Both the position numbers and the translations under genes were made by a program. From Saccharopolyspora phatthalungensis (GTDB taxonomy: Bacteria; Actinomycetota; Actinomycetes; Mycobacteriales; Pseudonocardiaceae): a stretch of 64,000 bases of DNA. Location of the stretch: positions 5,501,501 through 5,565,500 of the forward strand of contig NZ_JACHIW010000001.1 of the NCBI RefSeq assembly GCF_014203395.1, read 5' to 3'. Shown here one piece after another: positions 41,991 through 50,262 of the stretch. Position 1 is the stretch's first letter. Each line of letters begins with the position of its first letter. The notes under the pieces are model-generated. The model did no database searches. It saw only the letters and a list, made by a program, of their open reading frames with translations, and was not told the DNA's origin.

Positions 41991-42833
41991 TCACTCCTGA
42001 CTCTCATGCTTGGCCACATAGGACTCAATGACCTCAAGCGAGTCGTCTTGATTTAAGGCGACCTCGTCGAGTATTTCGATCGCGTCAAGAAATGGTTGTA
42101 CGTCCTCCTTTTCGGAGAGGAATGCGCCCGAGTGGCGCTGTTCTACATGTGCGACCGGCGAGTCTCGGATGAACTCGATCACCGAGAACCCGCCCGACAT
42201 CACCGTATGTGCACCAGCCGAGAACGGGATCACGCGAGGCGTGATGTTCGCCCGCTCTGCTGCTGACGCGAGGTGTCGCAACTGCTCGGCCATGACCGAC
42301 GGGCCGCCGACGCTTCGCGCGAACGCAGCCTCGTCGAAGTACGCGATCAGCTCGACCGGGTCCGACTGAGTCAGGATGCCCTGCCGAACCTGACGCACGT
42401 TGACGTACCGCTCAATCTGGTAGGCTTGCACGCCGAGTTTCGGCAGCAATGCGCGCGTGTAGCCCCGCGTTTGCAGCAGCCCCGGAACGAGCATCGTTGT
42501 CGCATTGGTGATCCGCCGGGCTCGTTGCTCCGCGTCAATGAGCGCGGTGTTCTGCGTGGTCAGTTCTAGTCCAACTTCCCACCATGCAGGCTGGTCGATA
42601 TCGCGAGCGAGCTTGAGAAGCCGTTCGCGATCTTCGCCTATGACGCCAACGATCGCCAGTATTGCCGAAAGGTCCGCTTCGTTAGGCGTGAATTTGGCCA
42701 ACTCGCAGCGGCTCACCTTGTTTTCGGATTAACCGAGCTTTTCGCCGACTTGGCGCATCGATAGCTGCGCAGCCTTGCGGGCGGCGCGCAGTTCTTTCGC
42801 TAGCGCACGTGCGCGGGGCGTCGCGGTCGTCAT
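41991..42833 (-). pseudogene. WhiJ-type HTH/DUF5753 regulator with an in-frame stop
   Basis: The 280-codon frame begins at ATG 42833 with an Arg/Ala-rich HTH (RARALAKELRAARKAAQLS). It has a TAA at 42729-42731 (codon 35) where relatives have a Trp-Ser in the recognition helix, then continues uninterrupted with ENKVSRCE and the DUF5753 domain (WWEVGLELT, MLVPGLLQTRGY, GGPSVMAEQLRHL). A GTG at 42716 would give only the ligand domain. Both it and the downstream DUF397 partner are broken, so the pair looks defunct unless the stop is a sequencing error. Confidence 0.82.
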
Positions 42834-44182: not shown

Positions 44183-45288
44183 GTGCACGAACTGATCGCA
44201 TCCCCGTTTCTTGATCATCACCTGCTGTTGCGGCCGGGAAGACAGCAGGGGCTCAAGATTCCGACGAGCAAGTACCGGGAACTGCAGCAGACCCGCGTCG
44301 ACCAGCCGTGCCCCTCGTGGCTGGTCGACGCCGCCCACCGGGCGTGGGCGCTCGACCTGAACGAGCGCCGGACGGGCGAGACGGTGCTCGTCCGGCAGCC
44401 CTCGCCCTACGGCTACGCCCGCGCGTCCTACGAGTTGAACCTCGGGTGCAACTACGATTGCCCGTTCTGCTACCTCGCAAGAAGCGGTTCGAGGGGCTCG
44501 GATGGCAGGACCGGGCGCGGCTGCTCCGCATCATGCGTGACGCCGGGGTCTTGTGGCTGCAGCTCACCGGCGGCGAACCGCTGATCGACCCGCTGTTCCT
44601 TGAGGTCTACGCCTTGGCCTACGAGCTCGGGATGATGCTCACGATCAGCACGAACGGCTCGCGCCTGCACAACTCGACGATTCTCGACCTGCTCACGCGC
44701 TACCTGCCCTACCGGGTCGTCGTGAGCATCTACGGCGCCACGGAAGCCACTTACGACGGCGTGACGCAGCGCCGCGGAACGTTCAAGCTGTTCCGGCGTG
44801 GCCTCGCCGCCGCCCGCGAAGCGGGTTTGCCGTTGCGGTTCAACGTGATCGTGGTCGAGGACAACAAGCACGAGGAAGCCGAAATGCGGGCGCTCGCCGA
44901 CGGGTTCGGCGACGACCACCACGTCTACAGCAACATCTCGCCGACAATCCACAGCGGGCCGGAGAGCCTGACGTCGCAGTCAACCGAGCACCTGCGCGCC
45001 CGCACGCCCTTCACCGGGTGCAACGCCGGGGTAACCCACTTCCACGCCGACCCGTTCGGCCGGGCGTCGATCTGCAAAGTCGGCCGAGACGAGCAGGTCG
45101 ACCTGATCGCCGAAGGAATCGAGGGGCTCTCACAGCTCCCGCCGATTGCGGACAAGTTGATGCTTCGCACCGGCGGGTGTTCGGGGTGTGCCCTGCAGGG
45201 CTCGTGTGGGGTCTGCAGGCCGCTCGCGAAGCGCTACCAAGAGGCAAACGCGCCCTTGGCTAGCTACTGCCAGCAGGGAGGGAGGTGA
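44183..45288 (+). pseudogene. Radical-SAM/SPASM peptide-modifying enzyme, frameshifted
   Basis: The GTG start has GGGAGGAAC upstream. The frame reaches the radical-SAM cysteines CNYDCPFC (C89, C93, C96) and then breaks. One base is missing at about 44477-44478, and the alternative frame continues from KKRFEGLGW through LTGGEPLID and a Cys-rich SPASM-like C-terminus (GGCSGCALQGSCGVC) to 45288. Corrected length is about 368 aa. Such enzymes install thioether or other crosslinks in ribosomal peptides, and a candidate precursor follows 5 bp later. Sequencing error or true decay cannot be separated here. Confidence 0.82.
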
Positions 45289-45293
45289 ACCCT

Positions 45294-45425
45294 ATGCCCG
45301 CCGTCCTGGTGACGCTCGAACCTCCGTCAAAGGAGCCGGAAGAGATCGAGTTCGTCCCGAATCTGGACGTGCTTTCTGAGTCGAACAGGTGCTCGTGCAC
45401 CTCAAGTGATGACAATCCGTACTGA
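45294..45425 (+). CDS. Candidate RiPP precursor peptide (43 aa)
   Basis: A short gene with an excellent ribosome site (GGGAGGGAGGTGAA) lies 5 bp after the radical-SAM stop. The leader-like first 28 residues are acidic and contain FVPNLDVLSE. The tail has RCSCTSSDDNPY with two Cys, a Thr and Ser that could be crosslinked. The NLDV stretch recalls leaders of FxLD-type lanthipeptides, although no lanthipeptide synthetase is present. A 16-bp terminator follows immediately, so the peptide can be made in excess over the downstream kinase. Identification rests on size, position and composition. Confidence 0.62.
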   Translation: MPAVLVTLEPPSKEPEEIEFVPNLDVLSESNRCSCTSSDDNPY

Positions 45426-45441
45426 TCGACAACGCCGCCAC

Positions 45442-45483
45442 CCGAACGGGTCTGCACGCCGCGCCGTGTGCAGGCCCGTTCGG
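45442..45483 (+). terminator. Terminator/attenuator after the precursor gene
   Basis: The 16-bp stem CCGAACGGGTCTGCAC (45442-45457) with its complement (45468-45483) has one G-T pair and a 10-nt loop. It lies 16 bp after the peptide stop and about 58 bp before the kinase start. Confidence 0.7.
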
Positions 45484-45540
45484 TCGTCTCGTTAGCCTCT
45501 CCGCCGACGGGCAACCACAGAAGCAAGGGAACAGAACGCA

Positions 45541-46370
45541 TGGCGCTAGCTCGCGTCGACTGGCAAGACGTGTCCCCGCACGTTCGCGAGGTCATCGAAT
45601 CGCGGACCGGCCCGGTGCGGTCGGCGCGGACGGTGTCGGCCGGGAAGCATTCGGCGGTCGCGCTGCTGCTGGACAGCTCCGGGGGACGGGTGTTCGTCAA
45701 GGGGCTCCGTACCGATCACGTAGGCATCATGACGCAGGCGCGCGAAGCGGTCATCGCGCCGTTCGTGGGGGCGGTGTCGCCGCGCCTGCTGTGGTGGGTC
45801 GAGGCTGACGGGTGGGATCTGCTCGGCTTCGAGTGGATTGAGGGGCGCCACGCCGACTACCGTCCCGGTTCGCCTGATCTTCCGGCCGTCGTCGAGATGA
45901 TGCAGCGGCTCGGCACCATCACCTGCCCGGACCTGCCGGAGGTCAAGCGGCCGGAGAAGCGGTGGCGCAAGTACGTCGACGACCCGGCCGAGCTTGAGAT
46001 GCTCACCGGCTCGACGCTGCTGCACACCGACTACAACCCGGCGAACGTGCTGATCGACAGCTCGGGGACGGCGCACCTGATCGACTGGGCGTGGCCCACA
46101 CGAGGCGCCGCGTTCATCGACCCGTGCGTGCTGGTGTACCGGCTGATCGCCGACGGGCACACGCCCGCCACCGCCGAGGCGTGGGTGCGCGACACCCCGG
46201 CGTGGGCAACCGCGTTGGCCGAGGCGATCGACGTATTCGCCCGCGCCAACGCCCGCGTGTGGGATGAGCTCGCCGCCGAGGCGCCCGAGGACCGGTGGAA
46301 ACGGAAGATGTCCGAGGTCACCCGCGAGTGGGCGGAGAGCCGCCGAGGCACCGCGCGAACGTCGAGGTAG
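45541..46370 (+). CDS. APH-type phosphotransferase
   Basis: This 276-aa aminoglycoside-phosphotransferase-fold kinase has VFVKG (Lys54), the catalytic loop LLHTDYNPANVL (Asp164, Asn169) and LIDWAW (Asp182). It lacks signals for a known antibiotic substrate. Following a radical-SAM enzyme and short peptide gene, it may phosphorylate the peptide, act in self-protection or be unrelated. The terminator upstream suggests reduced expression by read-through. Confidence 0.82.
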
Positions 46371-46456: not shown

Positions 46457-47221
46457 TTGGCATCCGCAGTGGAACAGCTCGGCCAGGCGATCGCGACCGC
46501 GGTGAGCAAGATCAAGGCGGCGGCCGGTGCCCTCACCGAAGCGATCGAGCGGTGCGAAGAGGGAAACGAGCACCTCGCGACGGCGCTGCAGGGCGCGGCC
46601 GACGACGAGGTGCTCGCCGCCGCGCAAGCCCAGCAGGCCGTGCCGCAGGAACTCGCGACGGTGCGTCAACAGGTGCAGGCGATCGAGGCGCAGCTCGACG
46701 CCTACCGGGAACGAAACGGGATTCCCTCGGGCGCCCCGCCGAGCGCCACGGCGGCCCCCGCTTCGCCCGCGACCAGCTCGGCGGCATCCGGCTCGGCGCC
46801 GTCGGCCCCGGCCCGCTCGGACCTACCGTGCCCGCCGCAGCCGGGTAAGACGCACGGCCGGTGGATCAACAGCGACGGCGACACGGTGAAGCTGGAAAGC
46901 GGCAAGGGCGGCGAGTACTACGAGGCCACTCGGCAGCTCGCCGTCGAGCACGGGCTCACGCGCGGCCACGTCAACGCGGAACCGGCGATTGCCCGCCACG
47001 TCGAGACGCAGTTCGTCGCCCGGATGATCGACCAGAACATCACCGAGGCCGAGATCGAGATCAATCGCCCGGTGTGCGGCACGACCCCGAAAGATCAGCA
47101 GTGGCCGAACACCTGCGACCAGTGGCTTTCGAGGTTCCTGCCGGAAGGGTGGAAACTGACAGTGAAGGACGGATCGAGCCCGGACGGGCGCCGCTACGTC
47201 GGGCGGAAGGTGAAGGAATGA
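46457..47221 (+). CDS. DddA-type (SCP1.201-like) deaminase toxin candidate
   Basis: The 254-aa product has an N-terminal coiled-coil/helical region (residues about 1-85), a Pro/Ala/Ser linker (90-122) and a C-terminal deaminase domain. HVE (His181, Glu183) supplies the zinc and catalytic residues, and PVC (Cys207) with TC (Cys220) plus FLPEGWKLTV fit the SCP1.201-like/DddA family, whose founder deaminates cytosine in double-stranded DNA. The TTG start follows GAGGGGG. The stop overlaps an Imm1-like gene. The helical N-terminus resembles that of polymorphic toxins exported by type VII-like routes; the export route here is unknown. Confidence 0.78.
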   Translation: MASAVEQLGQAIATAVSKIKAAAGALTEAIERCEEGNEHLATALQGAADDEVLAAAQAQQAVPQELATVRQQVQAIEAQLDAYRERNGIPSGAPPSATAAPASPATSSAASGSAPSAPARSDLPCPPQPGKTHGRWINSDGDTVKLESGKGGEYYEATRQLAVEHGLTRGHVNAEPAIARHVETQFVARMIDQNITEAEIEINRPVCGTTPKDQQWPNTCDQWLSRFLPEGWKLTVKDGSSPDGRRYVGRKVKE

Positions 47222-47652
47222 GCATCACGGCAGGTTGGGCAGTGATCGGCCTCGACGGCTCGTATCAAGGTCTGAACGCGACCCTGAACACCCCGGACGA
47301 AGTCGCCGGGTTCGTCAAGCAGCTCGCCGACCCACAAGCGGACTCGGCCCGGCTGGTGCACAACGGCCGCCCGCTGTGGGACGCGGAAACGAACTTTCCC
47401 GATCACGACGTGTTCGCCGCCATCGTCGACGGGTTCGGCTACCTCTCCTACCAAGACGCCACCCGCGGCAAGGCATACCCCGAGGGCGATCCCGCCTCGG
47501 AAGGCTGCGAGTTCGACGACGATGACTTTCCGCCCGGTTCCGGCCTGCCTGTCGAGCGGTTCGCCGAGGTGCTCGTCGAGTTCCTCCGCACTGCCGACCG
47601 GCCCGCCTCGGTGACGTGGCGCGACCTGTACCCCGAGGCCACGGGCGAATGA
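47218..47652 (+). CDS. Imm1-like immunity protein for the deaminase
   Basis: This 144-aa acidic cytosolic protein has the Imm1-like pattern: LVHNGRPLW, FPDHDVFAAIVDGFGYLSYQD and a C-terminal VTWRDLYPE. The ATG overlaps the deaminase stop (ATGA), the normal order for toxin-immunity pairs. A strong terminator follows, closing the unit. The assignment comes from overlap, composition and family resemblance, not from a search. Confidence 0.7.
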   Translation: MSITAGWAVIGLDGSYQGLNATLNTPDEVAGFVKQLADPQADSARLVHNGRPLWDAETNFPDHDVFAAIVDGFGYLSYQDATRGKAYPEGDPASEGCEFDDDDFPPGSGLPVERFAEVLVEFLRTADRPASVTWRDLYPEATGE

Positions 47653-49668: not shown

Positions 49669-50262
49669 TCACGACCACGTCATGTCGTGCCCTCGCTCGT
49701 CGAGCTTCTCGACGACCTGCAGGATCTCGTCGAGCGTGACGATCCGGGCCCGGTGCCGCACCTCGGCGGGCCGTTCCACACCCTGCGTGGGGTCGTCGCT
49801 GCGCAGCCCCTCGACGATCGCCGCCTGCATGAGCTTGTTCAGCACCACCAGCCGGACCCGGATCGTGCCGTCGGATCGGCCCCGCCGCTTGAGGTCGGCT
49901 TTCATCGCCCGCACGTCCGCCGCTGTGATCGCGGCGACCGGGGTCTCTTCTCCGAAGTGCTTGATCAGGGCGCGGACGTTGCTGCGGTACGACTTGTTCG
50001 TGTTCTCCGAGTAGGCGAGATCATCGGCCCACGCTGTGGCGAACGGGCCGAACTTGCAGGATCGCACCCGAGCCTCGCCGCGGAAGTACGCGGCGTTCTC
50101 GCGCTCCATGTCCTGCCACCAGCGGTTGCCCTCGCGCAGGGTGGCGAACGTCTTGGTGCCGCCGATCTTGCGCTTGCCGGGCTTGCTGAAGAAGTCGTAC
50201 CACTCAGCGCGGTAAGGCTTGGCCGCGTTCTCGCGGCCCTTCATCAGGTAGCACGTGCCCAT
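49669..50262 (-). pseudogene. Tyrosine integrase fragment lacking the catalytic domain
   Basis: The 197-aa product contains the AP2-like arm and SAM-like core-binding domain of a phage/element integrase (KTFATLREGNRWWQDME, NKSYRSNVRALIKHFG, AADVRAMKADL) and stops just after TLDEILQVV. The Arg-Lys-His-Arg-Tyr catalytic domain is absent. The stop codon is in frame with the neighbouring small membrane gene, as if a deletion fused the two. It marks this island as a degraded prophage or element. Confidence 0.75.

Follow-up and report, generated by a model that had tools for sequence, protein, structure and literature searches.

The stretch of the Saccharopolyspora phatthalungensis genome considered here (the window: 64,000 nucleotides, positions 5,501,501 to 5,565,500 of contig NZ_JACHIW010000001.1) carries three forward-strand genes between its positions 44183 and 46370: a radical S-adenosylmethionine (SAM) enzyme of the SPASM type, a 43 amino acid cysteine-containing peptide and a kinase with the aminoglycoside phosphotransferase (APH) fold. 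An initial annotation had proposed the three as a candidate locus for a ribosomally synthesised and post-translationally modified peptide (RiPP), and its coordinates proved correct when the open reading frames (ORFs) and the sequence were read again. Comparison with other genomes suggests that a compact cassette of this kind, made up of a radical SAM enzyme, the short Cys peptide that it probably modifies and a kinase, is widespread in actinomycetes and apparently undescribed, that the locus is a damaged copy of it, and that it belongs to a family of putative radical SAM-modified RiPPs. Across Saccharopolyspora, Streptomyces and other actinomycetes the gene order is kept: radical SAM/SPASM enzyme, small peptide gene, hairpin, and then the APH-fold kinase and/or a GCN5-related N-acetyltransferase (GNAT). 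Besides this gene order, the comparison of sequences shows a conserved peptide core and, in the raw counts, a link between a core tyrosine and the kinase.

The maturase

The radical SAM/SPASM maturase gene (44183–45288, forward strand) begins at a GTG codon at 44183, but its frame is broken near 44484, just past the CxxxCxxC motif, and it is read as two ORFs (44183–44584 and 44308–45288), the second of which stops at the TGA ending at 45288. The two frames between them encode the CxxxCxxC motif and the SPASM cysteines, and the C-terminal piece is 97% identical to the intact 368 amino acid enzyme of S. kobensis (P0008). When the DNA is aligned with that of S. kobensis (locus L009), the window's gene has one base fewer, directly after CxxxCxxC, and a 3.1-kb alignment to a genome of the same genus (G012, locus L090) likewise contains a single gap. 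Unless this one-base loss is a sequencing error, the window's copy of the cassette is probably silent. A programmed frameshift appears unlikely, because intact relatives read the maturase in one frame. Among 11 further damaged maturases compared with the window, one, that of L408 in another genome, changes frame only a few codons away from the window's break: its frame shift (about 2019–2081) falls directly after CxxxCxxC in a copy that is degraded upstream too, and may reflect either chance or a mutation-prone spot. Recoding of in-frame TGA codons was also considered and rejected, as of five stop-containing translations two (L067 and L185) have the stop internally and three have it at the gene end.

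Pfam Radical_SAM was matched on P0008 and on the other members of an alignment of 67 maturases, in which C89, C93 and C96 are invariant together with C280, C298, C333, C336, C342, C345 and C363. No RiPP recognition element (RRE) or PqqD family is found among the Pfam hits of the 67 sequences. In the structure model of the maturase, residues 4–67 form three strands followed by three helices, and structure alignments with SkfB and SuiB extend to residues 2–3. None of the best 25 of 51 NCBIfam models reaches its cut-off on P0008. Viperin proper has neither SPASM cysteines nor a precursor peptide gene, and a viperin or defence reading was rejected: the PADLOC pVip model matches residues 83–233 only, and the maturase has all the SPASM cysteines and a peptide gene beside it.

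The precursor peptide and the hairpin

As initially annotated, the SPASM-like radical SAM gene is followed after 5 bp by the peptide gene (45294–45425, forward strand), whose ATG at 45294 lies five bases past the TGA ending at 45288 and whose stop ends at 45425. Identified as an ORF and by its conservation within the family, it encodes 43 amino acids, with an acidic, variable leader, a conserved core, NRCSCTSSDDNPY, and the C-terminus RCSCTSSDDNPY.

This gene is conserved beside homologous radical SAM genes. In the first set of 102 loci (the best 80 of 197 maturase loci in named genomes, plus 22 supplied by a search across the class), a peptide with the motif adjoins the radical SAM gene, directly after the maturase, in 99; in an enlarged set of 210 loci, of which 176 are distinct because some sites were collected twice, a peptide is present in 208 once pattern misses are checked by eye, the exceptions being L070 and L104. 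The three misses of the first set comprise L070, which has no such ORF, L104, which is cut by the sequence end, and L111, in which the maturase frame is broken. The stop and start codons of maturase and peptide overlap by four bases in 60 of the 99 loci. A core-like end was found elsewhere in the same 102 loci in only one of 9281 ORFs of 30–95 amino acids, which rules out a chance small ORF. A short precursor gene conserved beside its maturase is a feature of radical SAM RiPPs in the broad sense. As the genome searches scored the best few candidates per genome (5–13), the tallies from them are lower bounds.

The core consensus is roughly C-S-C-x-A-G-D-D-N-P-[Y/H/F]. Among 169 distinct peptides the last core aromatic position is Tyr in 116, His in 39, Phe in 13 and Asn in one; it is preceded by Pro in 168, and the two positions ahead of the N/Q-P pair are Asp in 158 and 159. 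C-x-C is present in 129 peptides and a single Cys in the remaining 40, with a spacing of mostly C-x3-D in the two-Cys cores, whilst the leaders, which share a loose V-x-D-L-D motif, differ from one another in both length and sequence. The conserved CSC tails and varied leaders anticipated in the initial annotation are thus seen, and its impression that the peptide matches no named precursor family also holds, in that NCBIfam models searched with four peptides at E values up to 10 return no family. Ratios of non-synonymous to synonymous change (dN/dS) between the window and S. kobensis (L009), each based on few changes, are 0.09 and 0.18 for the two parts of the maturase, 0.11 for the peptide and 0.37 for the kinase; from these the peptide and the maturase look to be under purifying selection, the kinase less so.

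Between peptide and kinase lies a GC-rich inverted repeat (45442–45483, forward strand, limits read by eye) without a run of T. The 90 nt past the peptide stop have a folding z of −3.1 in the window and −0.9 in the copy on contig 3 of the same genome (L185); z is below −2 in 145 of 172 family loci, against one of 120 control segments taken within radical SAM genes. The hairpin is probably a terminator or an attenuator. The word terminator, used initially, is therefore only partly apt: the inverted repeat is there, the T run is not.

The kinase and acetyltransferase partners

Past the hairpin, as first described, is a kinase-fold gene (45540–46370, forward strand), running from an ATG at 45540, although a longer form starting at a GTG at 45468 is possible. 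Alignment, structure model and fold matches all identify the 276 amino acid product as an APH-fold kinase with K54, D164, N169 and D182 present. K54, N169 and D182 are found in 30 of 30 aligned kinases and D164 in most, with Glu in L083, so that the family kinase has both the fold and the catalytic Lys, HxD, Asn and Asp. The model has a mean predicted local distance difference test (pLDDT) score of 95.4, and its nearest folds are antibiotic and small-molecule kinases, with the corramycin phosphotransferase first but tied with others. The Pfam APH model scores the window kinase at 19.9, below its cut-off of 23.2, and that of L010 at 28.7, above it.

When the neighbouring genes at 74 of 81 loci were clustered (at the other seven the maturase had escaped the gene caller), two families emerged downstream, GNAT at 40 loci and kinase at 30, with a Pfam acetyltransferase domain in three GNAT members. 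Other recurrent clusters, named by eye, lie mostly upstream: an HTH (helix-turn-helix) regulator-like group (32 loci) and a Nudix-like group (21). No protease or exporter was recognised by eye among the recurrent neighbours. A kinase had been thought an unusual partner in the initial annotation; it is a recurrent partner across the family, yet it alternates or coexists with the GNAT.

The choice of partner follows the core residue. Across the 176 distinct loci, the last core aromatic is Tyr in all 114 with a kinase (107 of 107 kinase-only loci and 7 of 7 with kinase and GNAT) but in only 4 of the 62 without one. GNAT-only loci have Tyr in 3 of 60 cases, His in 44, Phe in 12 and Asn in one, and the two loci with neither enzyme have one Tyr and one Phe. 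(At the Phe locus, L178, an upstream ORF was considered as a GNAT, but Pfam found nothing.) Two later loci, L170 and L343, have both kinase and Tyr. Fisher's exact test, applied naively and ignoring descent, gives p = 3e-42. A tree of 152 maturases shows six kinase changes and six Tyr changes, and of the independent pairs three to four agree, none disagrees and two to three are uninformative. The Tyr rule thus appears strict in its raw form and consistent on the tree, without being statistically proven.

Could kinase and GNAT be unrelated passengers behind the radical SAM–peptide pair? Kinases of the same family do occur elsewhere, but one or both enzymes lie within 4 kb downstream in 174 of the 176 distinct loci, and wherever the kinase is present the core residue is Tyr. 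We regard this explanation as very improbable.

A predicted pathway

We give roughly even odds to a pathway in which the product is a radical SAM-modified RiPP, the kinase acts on the core Tyr and the GNAT on an amino group, and both modifications are self-protective. A putative N-terminal RRE-like domain of the maturase would bind the acidic leader, and the enzyme would crosslink a core Cys to the stretch rich in D and N behind it, the favoured bond being a thioether as in sactipeptides or ranthipeptides. Release of the core would fall to host proteases, which are proposed because neither a protease nor an exporter was recognised among the recurrent neighbours. The APH-fold kinase would then phosphorylate the hydroxyl of the core Tyr and the GNAT would acetylate an amino group, in both cases most likely disarming the product within the producing cell. 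A peptide with His or Phe at the end has no hydroxyl there and would travel with the GNAT alone. The genome of the window, with its broken maturase and three kinase copies beside damaged or missing maturases, looks as if immunity had outlived production. More tentatively, immunity in this family could be a swappable drug-modifying enzyme set by a single core residue, Tyr going with a kinase and His or Phe with an acetyltransferase alone, and the kinase could persist in neighbours after the pathway is lost, as a resistance gene standing on its own; this we consider possible but somewhat doubtful.

Kinases without a full maturase

The 8.54 Mb genome of S. phatthalungensis (six contigs) has four open kinases, three besides that of the window (L185, L186 and L187, on contigs 1 and 3). 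Their settings are the window's broken maturase, a contig-3 maturase with an in-frame TGA, a maturase fragment and a peptide tail only; a fifth kinase (310 bits, contig 2) and weaker ones stand alone. To place these in a wider census, 394 genomes of the family of genome G203, which appears to be rich in Streptomyces, were searched for both proteins. The search gave 77 family kinases scoring 300 bits or more: a full maturase match adjoins 47 of them, a partial match adjoins eight, and the other 22 have none nearby. In two of the eight partial cases the maturases align end to end with internal deletions, the others being truncated or shifted, and when the 22 lone kinases were rechecked on DNA, four had a piece of maturase or peptide nearby. 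One lone kinase (415 bits) is found in a genome (G962) whose cassette is of the GNAT-only type with a His core. Separately, at L371 (6110–7953, minus strand) a distant family kinase adjoins a different, divergent radical SAM gene, possibly another pairing of a radical SAM enzyme with a kinase.

These kinases bear on a second account of the partners, namely that kinase and GNAT are tailoring enzymes and that the phosphate or acetyl group is part of the final bioactive product, as reported for some lasso peptides. Both enzymes share the cassette with the peptide, tailoring would produce an identical match between Tyr and kinase, and the hairpin that separates the peptide and kinase genes would be in keeping with any enzyme needed at a lower dose. 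A tailoring enzyme would, however, be expected to accompany its pathway, whereas 30 of the 77 strong kinases have no full maturase nearby (a figure biased towards surviving kinases), and Tyr-type radical SAM–peptide pairs seldom lack the family kinase (4 of 118 distinct Tyr loci). Such an asymmetry is the pattern of immunity genes; judged from these sequences, it would fit self-protection through hydroxyl phosphorylation somewhat better than tailoring. Self-protection is also placed first, and tailoring second, because of the parallels with capreomycin and ComG discussed below, and we consider tailoring rather unlikely.

Several observations weigh against the self-protective pathway. Firstly, 18 of the 22 lone kinases have no cassette remnant and weaker kinase homologues occur in other contexts, so part of the kinase family may have another role; the cut-off of 300 bits also omits decayed kinases, biasing the census to surviving ones. 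Secondly, the link between Tyr and kinase is not significant phylogenetically (p 0.125–0.25 with 152 rows and 0.25–0.5 with 109), because informative pairs are too few (never six), and most GNAT-only loci belong to one Streptomyces clade, so that common ancestry accounts for a large part of the raw count. Thirdly, there are the four Tyr loci without a family kinase: two in Glycomyces (L024 and L034), one on a viral contig (L233) and one in Rhizohabitans (L069). No strong family kinase is found elsewhere in the two Glycomyces genomes or that of Rhizohabitans, the best match being 65.6 bits. An APH and a GNAT, both unrelated to those of the family, do lie near the Rhizohabitans locus, no more than about 1.1 kb away and on the opposite strand; they may or may not be stand-ins. 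Finally, the lack of a recognised exporter among the recurrent neighbours would be odd for a secreted antibiotic.

Distribution

Cassettes are found in Saccharopolyspora, Streptomyces, Amycolatopsis, Lentzea, Actinomadura, Frankia and other genera. Their occurrence is sporadic: the peptide search detects them in 4 of 22 genomes of the genus (one weakly, E 0.003), and hits occur in 17 of 394 genomes of the class, 5 of 298 of the order and, in the families of individual genomes, 6 of 35 (G132), 25 of 250 (G253), 15 of 150 (G682) and 77 of 394 (G203). Full-length maturase relatives are present on six plasmid-collection records, one of them 11.9 Mb long, and 12 on IMG/VR viral contigs (L230–L241), all accompanied by a peptide gene as well as by a kinase or GNAT, are possible cargo of prophages or integrative elements.

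This pattern bears on a further alternative, that the peptide is no antimicrobial but serves as the scaffold for a cofactor or signal that the cell itself uses, as with pyrroloquinoline quinone (PQQ) or mycofactocin. Among the listed NCBIfam models the radical SAM enzyme P0008 scores highest against the mycofactocin maturase MftC, the peptide core is more constant than might be expected of a weapon, and the recurrent neighbours include no exporter recognised by eye. That score, however, is 65.6 bits, far under the model's cut-off of 265; residues often follow the core Tyr, unlike in MftA; and the sporadic, plasmid and viral occurrence suits an accessory trait. A cofactor or signal role therefore seems improbable to us.

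Neighbouring genes in the window

Downstream of the kinase, positions 46457–47652 encode a protein that combines a coiled N-terminus with a DddA-like deaminase domain (Pfam E 7e-17), and an Imm1 immunity gene comes next. Deaminase relatives lie behind three other kinase copies of the same genome. The deaminase was considered as part of the cassette and rejected: its profile occurs at only five of the 210 loci, each of which either is of the window's locus type or comes from the same genome. At 41991–42833 there is an XRE-type regulator with a DUF5753 domain, the HTH start of which, by eye, is likely to be in another frame; in the alignment to S. kobensis this region has a two-base insertion. 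The N-terminal part only of a tyrosine recombinase (49669–50262) adjoins a GH25 gene and possibly marks the edge of a mobile element.

Novelty and significance

In the literature searched, the core string AGDDNPY has no match, and the matches to five short core strings are unrelated by title and abstract. No description of the cassette was found among the matches listed, judged by title or the start of the abstract, in a search whose scope left most subscription journals, and the published radical SAM atlases, outside; such silence is a weak sign of novelty. The rule that pairs Tyr with the kinase appears to be new here. The family is sizeable and easily recognised, its cassettes are very small (three or four genes) and the near-fixed core suits synthesis and enzyme assays. 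If the proposed role of the kinase is right, the cassettes would offer a natural test of how resistance by APH and GNAT enzymes originates when a producer protects itself from a ribosomal peptide, and some of the lone kinases would then be resistance genes parted from the antibiotic concerned. Confirmation of the radical SAM step would add a new core motif to radical SAM chemistry.

Relationship to known systems

The maturases SkfB, CteB and PapB share with the cassette enzyme the radical SAM core and the SPASM Cys set. SkfB aligns with it from the N-terminal, RRE-like region onwards, CteB only from model residue 76. As in sactipeptide and ranthipeptide systems, a short Cys precursor lies beside the maturase, but the cassette core is one short C-S-C...DDNPY element and the partner is a kinase or a GNAT. 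P0008 is also far under the cut-offs of the sactipeptide maturase families (StsB, 53.3 of 625 bits; SkfB, 31.3 of 300; AlbA, 32.7 of 850). SuiB, the streptide radical SAM enzyme, is 17% identical to the cassette maturase; the crosslink in streptide joins Lys and Trp, a pair absent from the cassette core motif. Freyrasin contains Cys–Asp thioethers (PMC11002830); in the cassette core too Cys is followed by Asp, a likeness at the level of sequence.

For the partners, the closest parallels come from peptide antibiotics. Capreomycin is nonribosomal, as is corramycin, whereas the cassette substrate would be a ribosomal peptide with Tyr as the site. ComG and the capreomycin kinase Cph have the APH fold, as does the cassette kinase. 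ComG is able to inactivate corramycin (PMC10996006), Cph acts on a hydroxyl that some capreomycin congeners lack and the proposed target of the capreomycin acetyltransferase Cac is an amino group common to all four (PMC9403184). A hydroxyl kinase and a proposed amino-group acetyltransferase, each directed against the producer's own peptide antibiotic, are what the kinase and GNAT of the cassette would resemble, a parallel drawn from genes (PMC10996006, PMC9403184). An APH-fold protein also accompanies a RiPP in the spr cluster, a lanthipeptide-like Streptomyces system with PF01636 proteins (sprPT; PMC7794033). Read by eye, the 40 neighbour clusters most common at the 74 cassette loci included no recognisable HopA1-like or other class V lanthipeptide partner. 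In the spr cluster the APH-fold protein is assigned to dehydration and cyclisation with a HopA1-like partner (PMC7794033), whereas the recurrent genes of the cassette are those for a radical SAM enzyme, a kinase and a GNAT.
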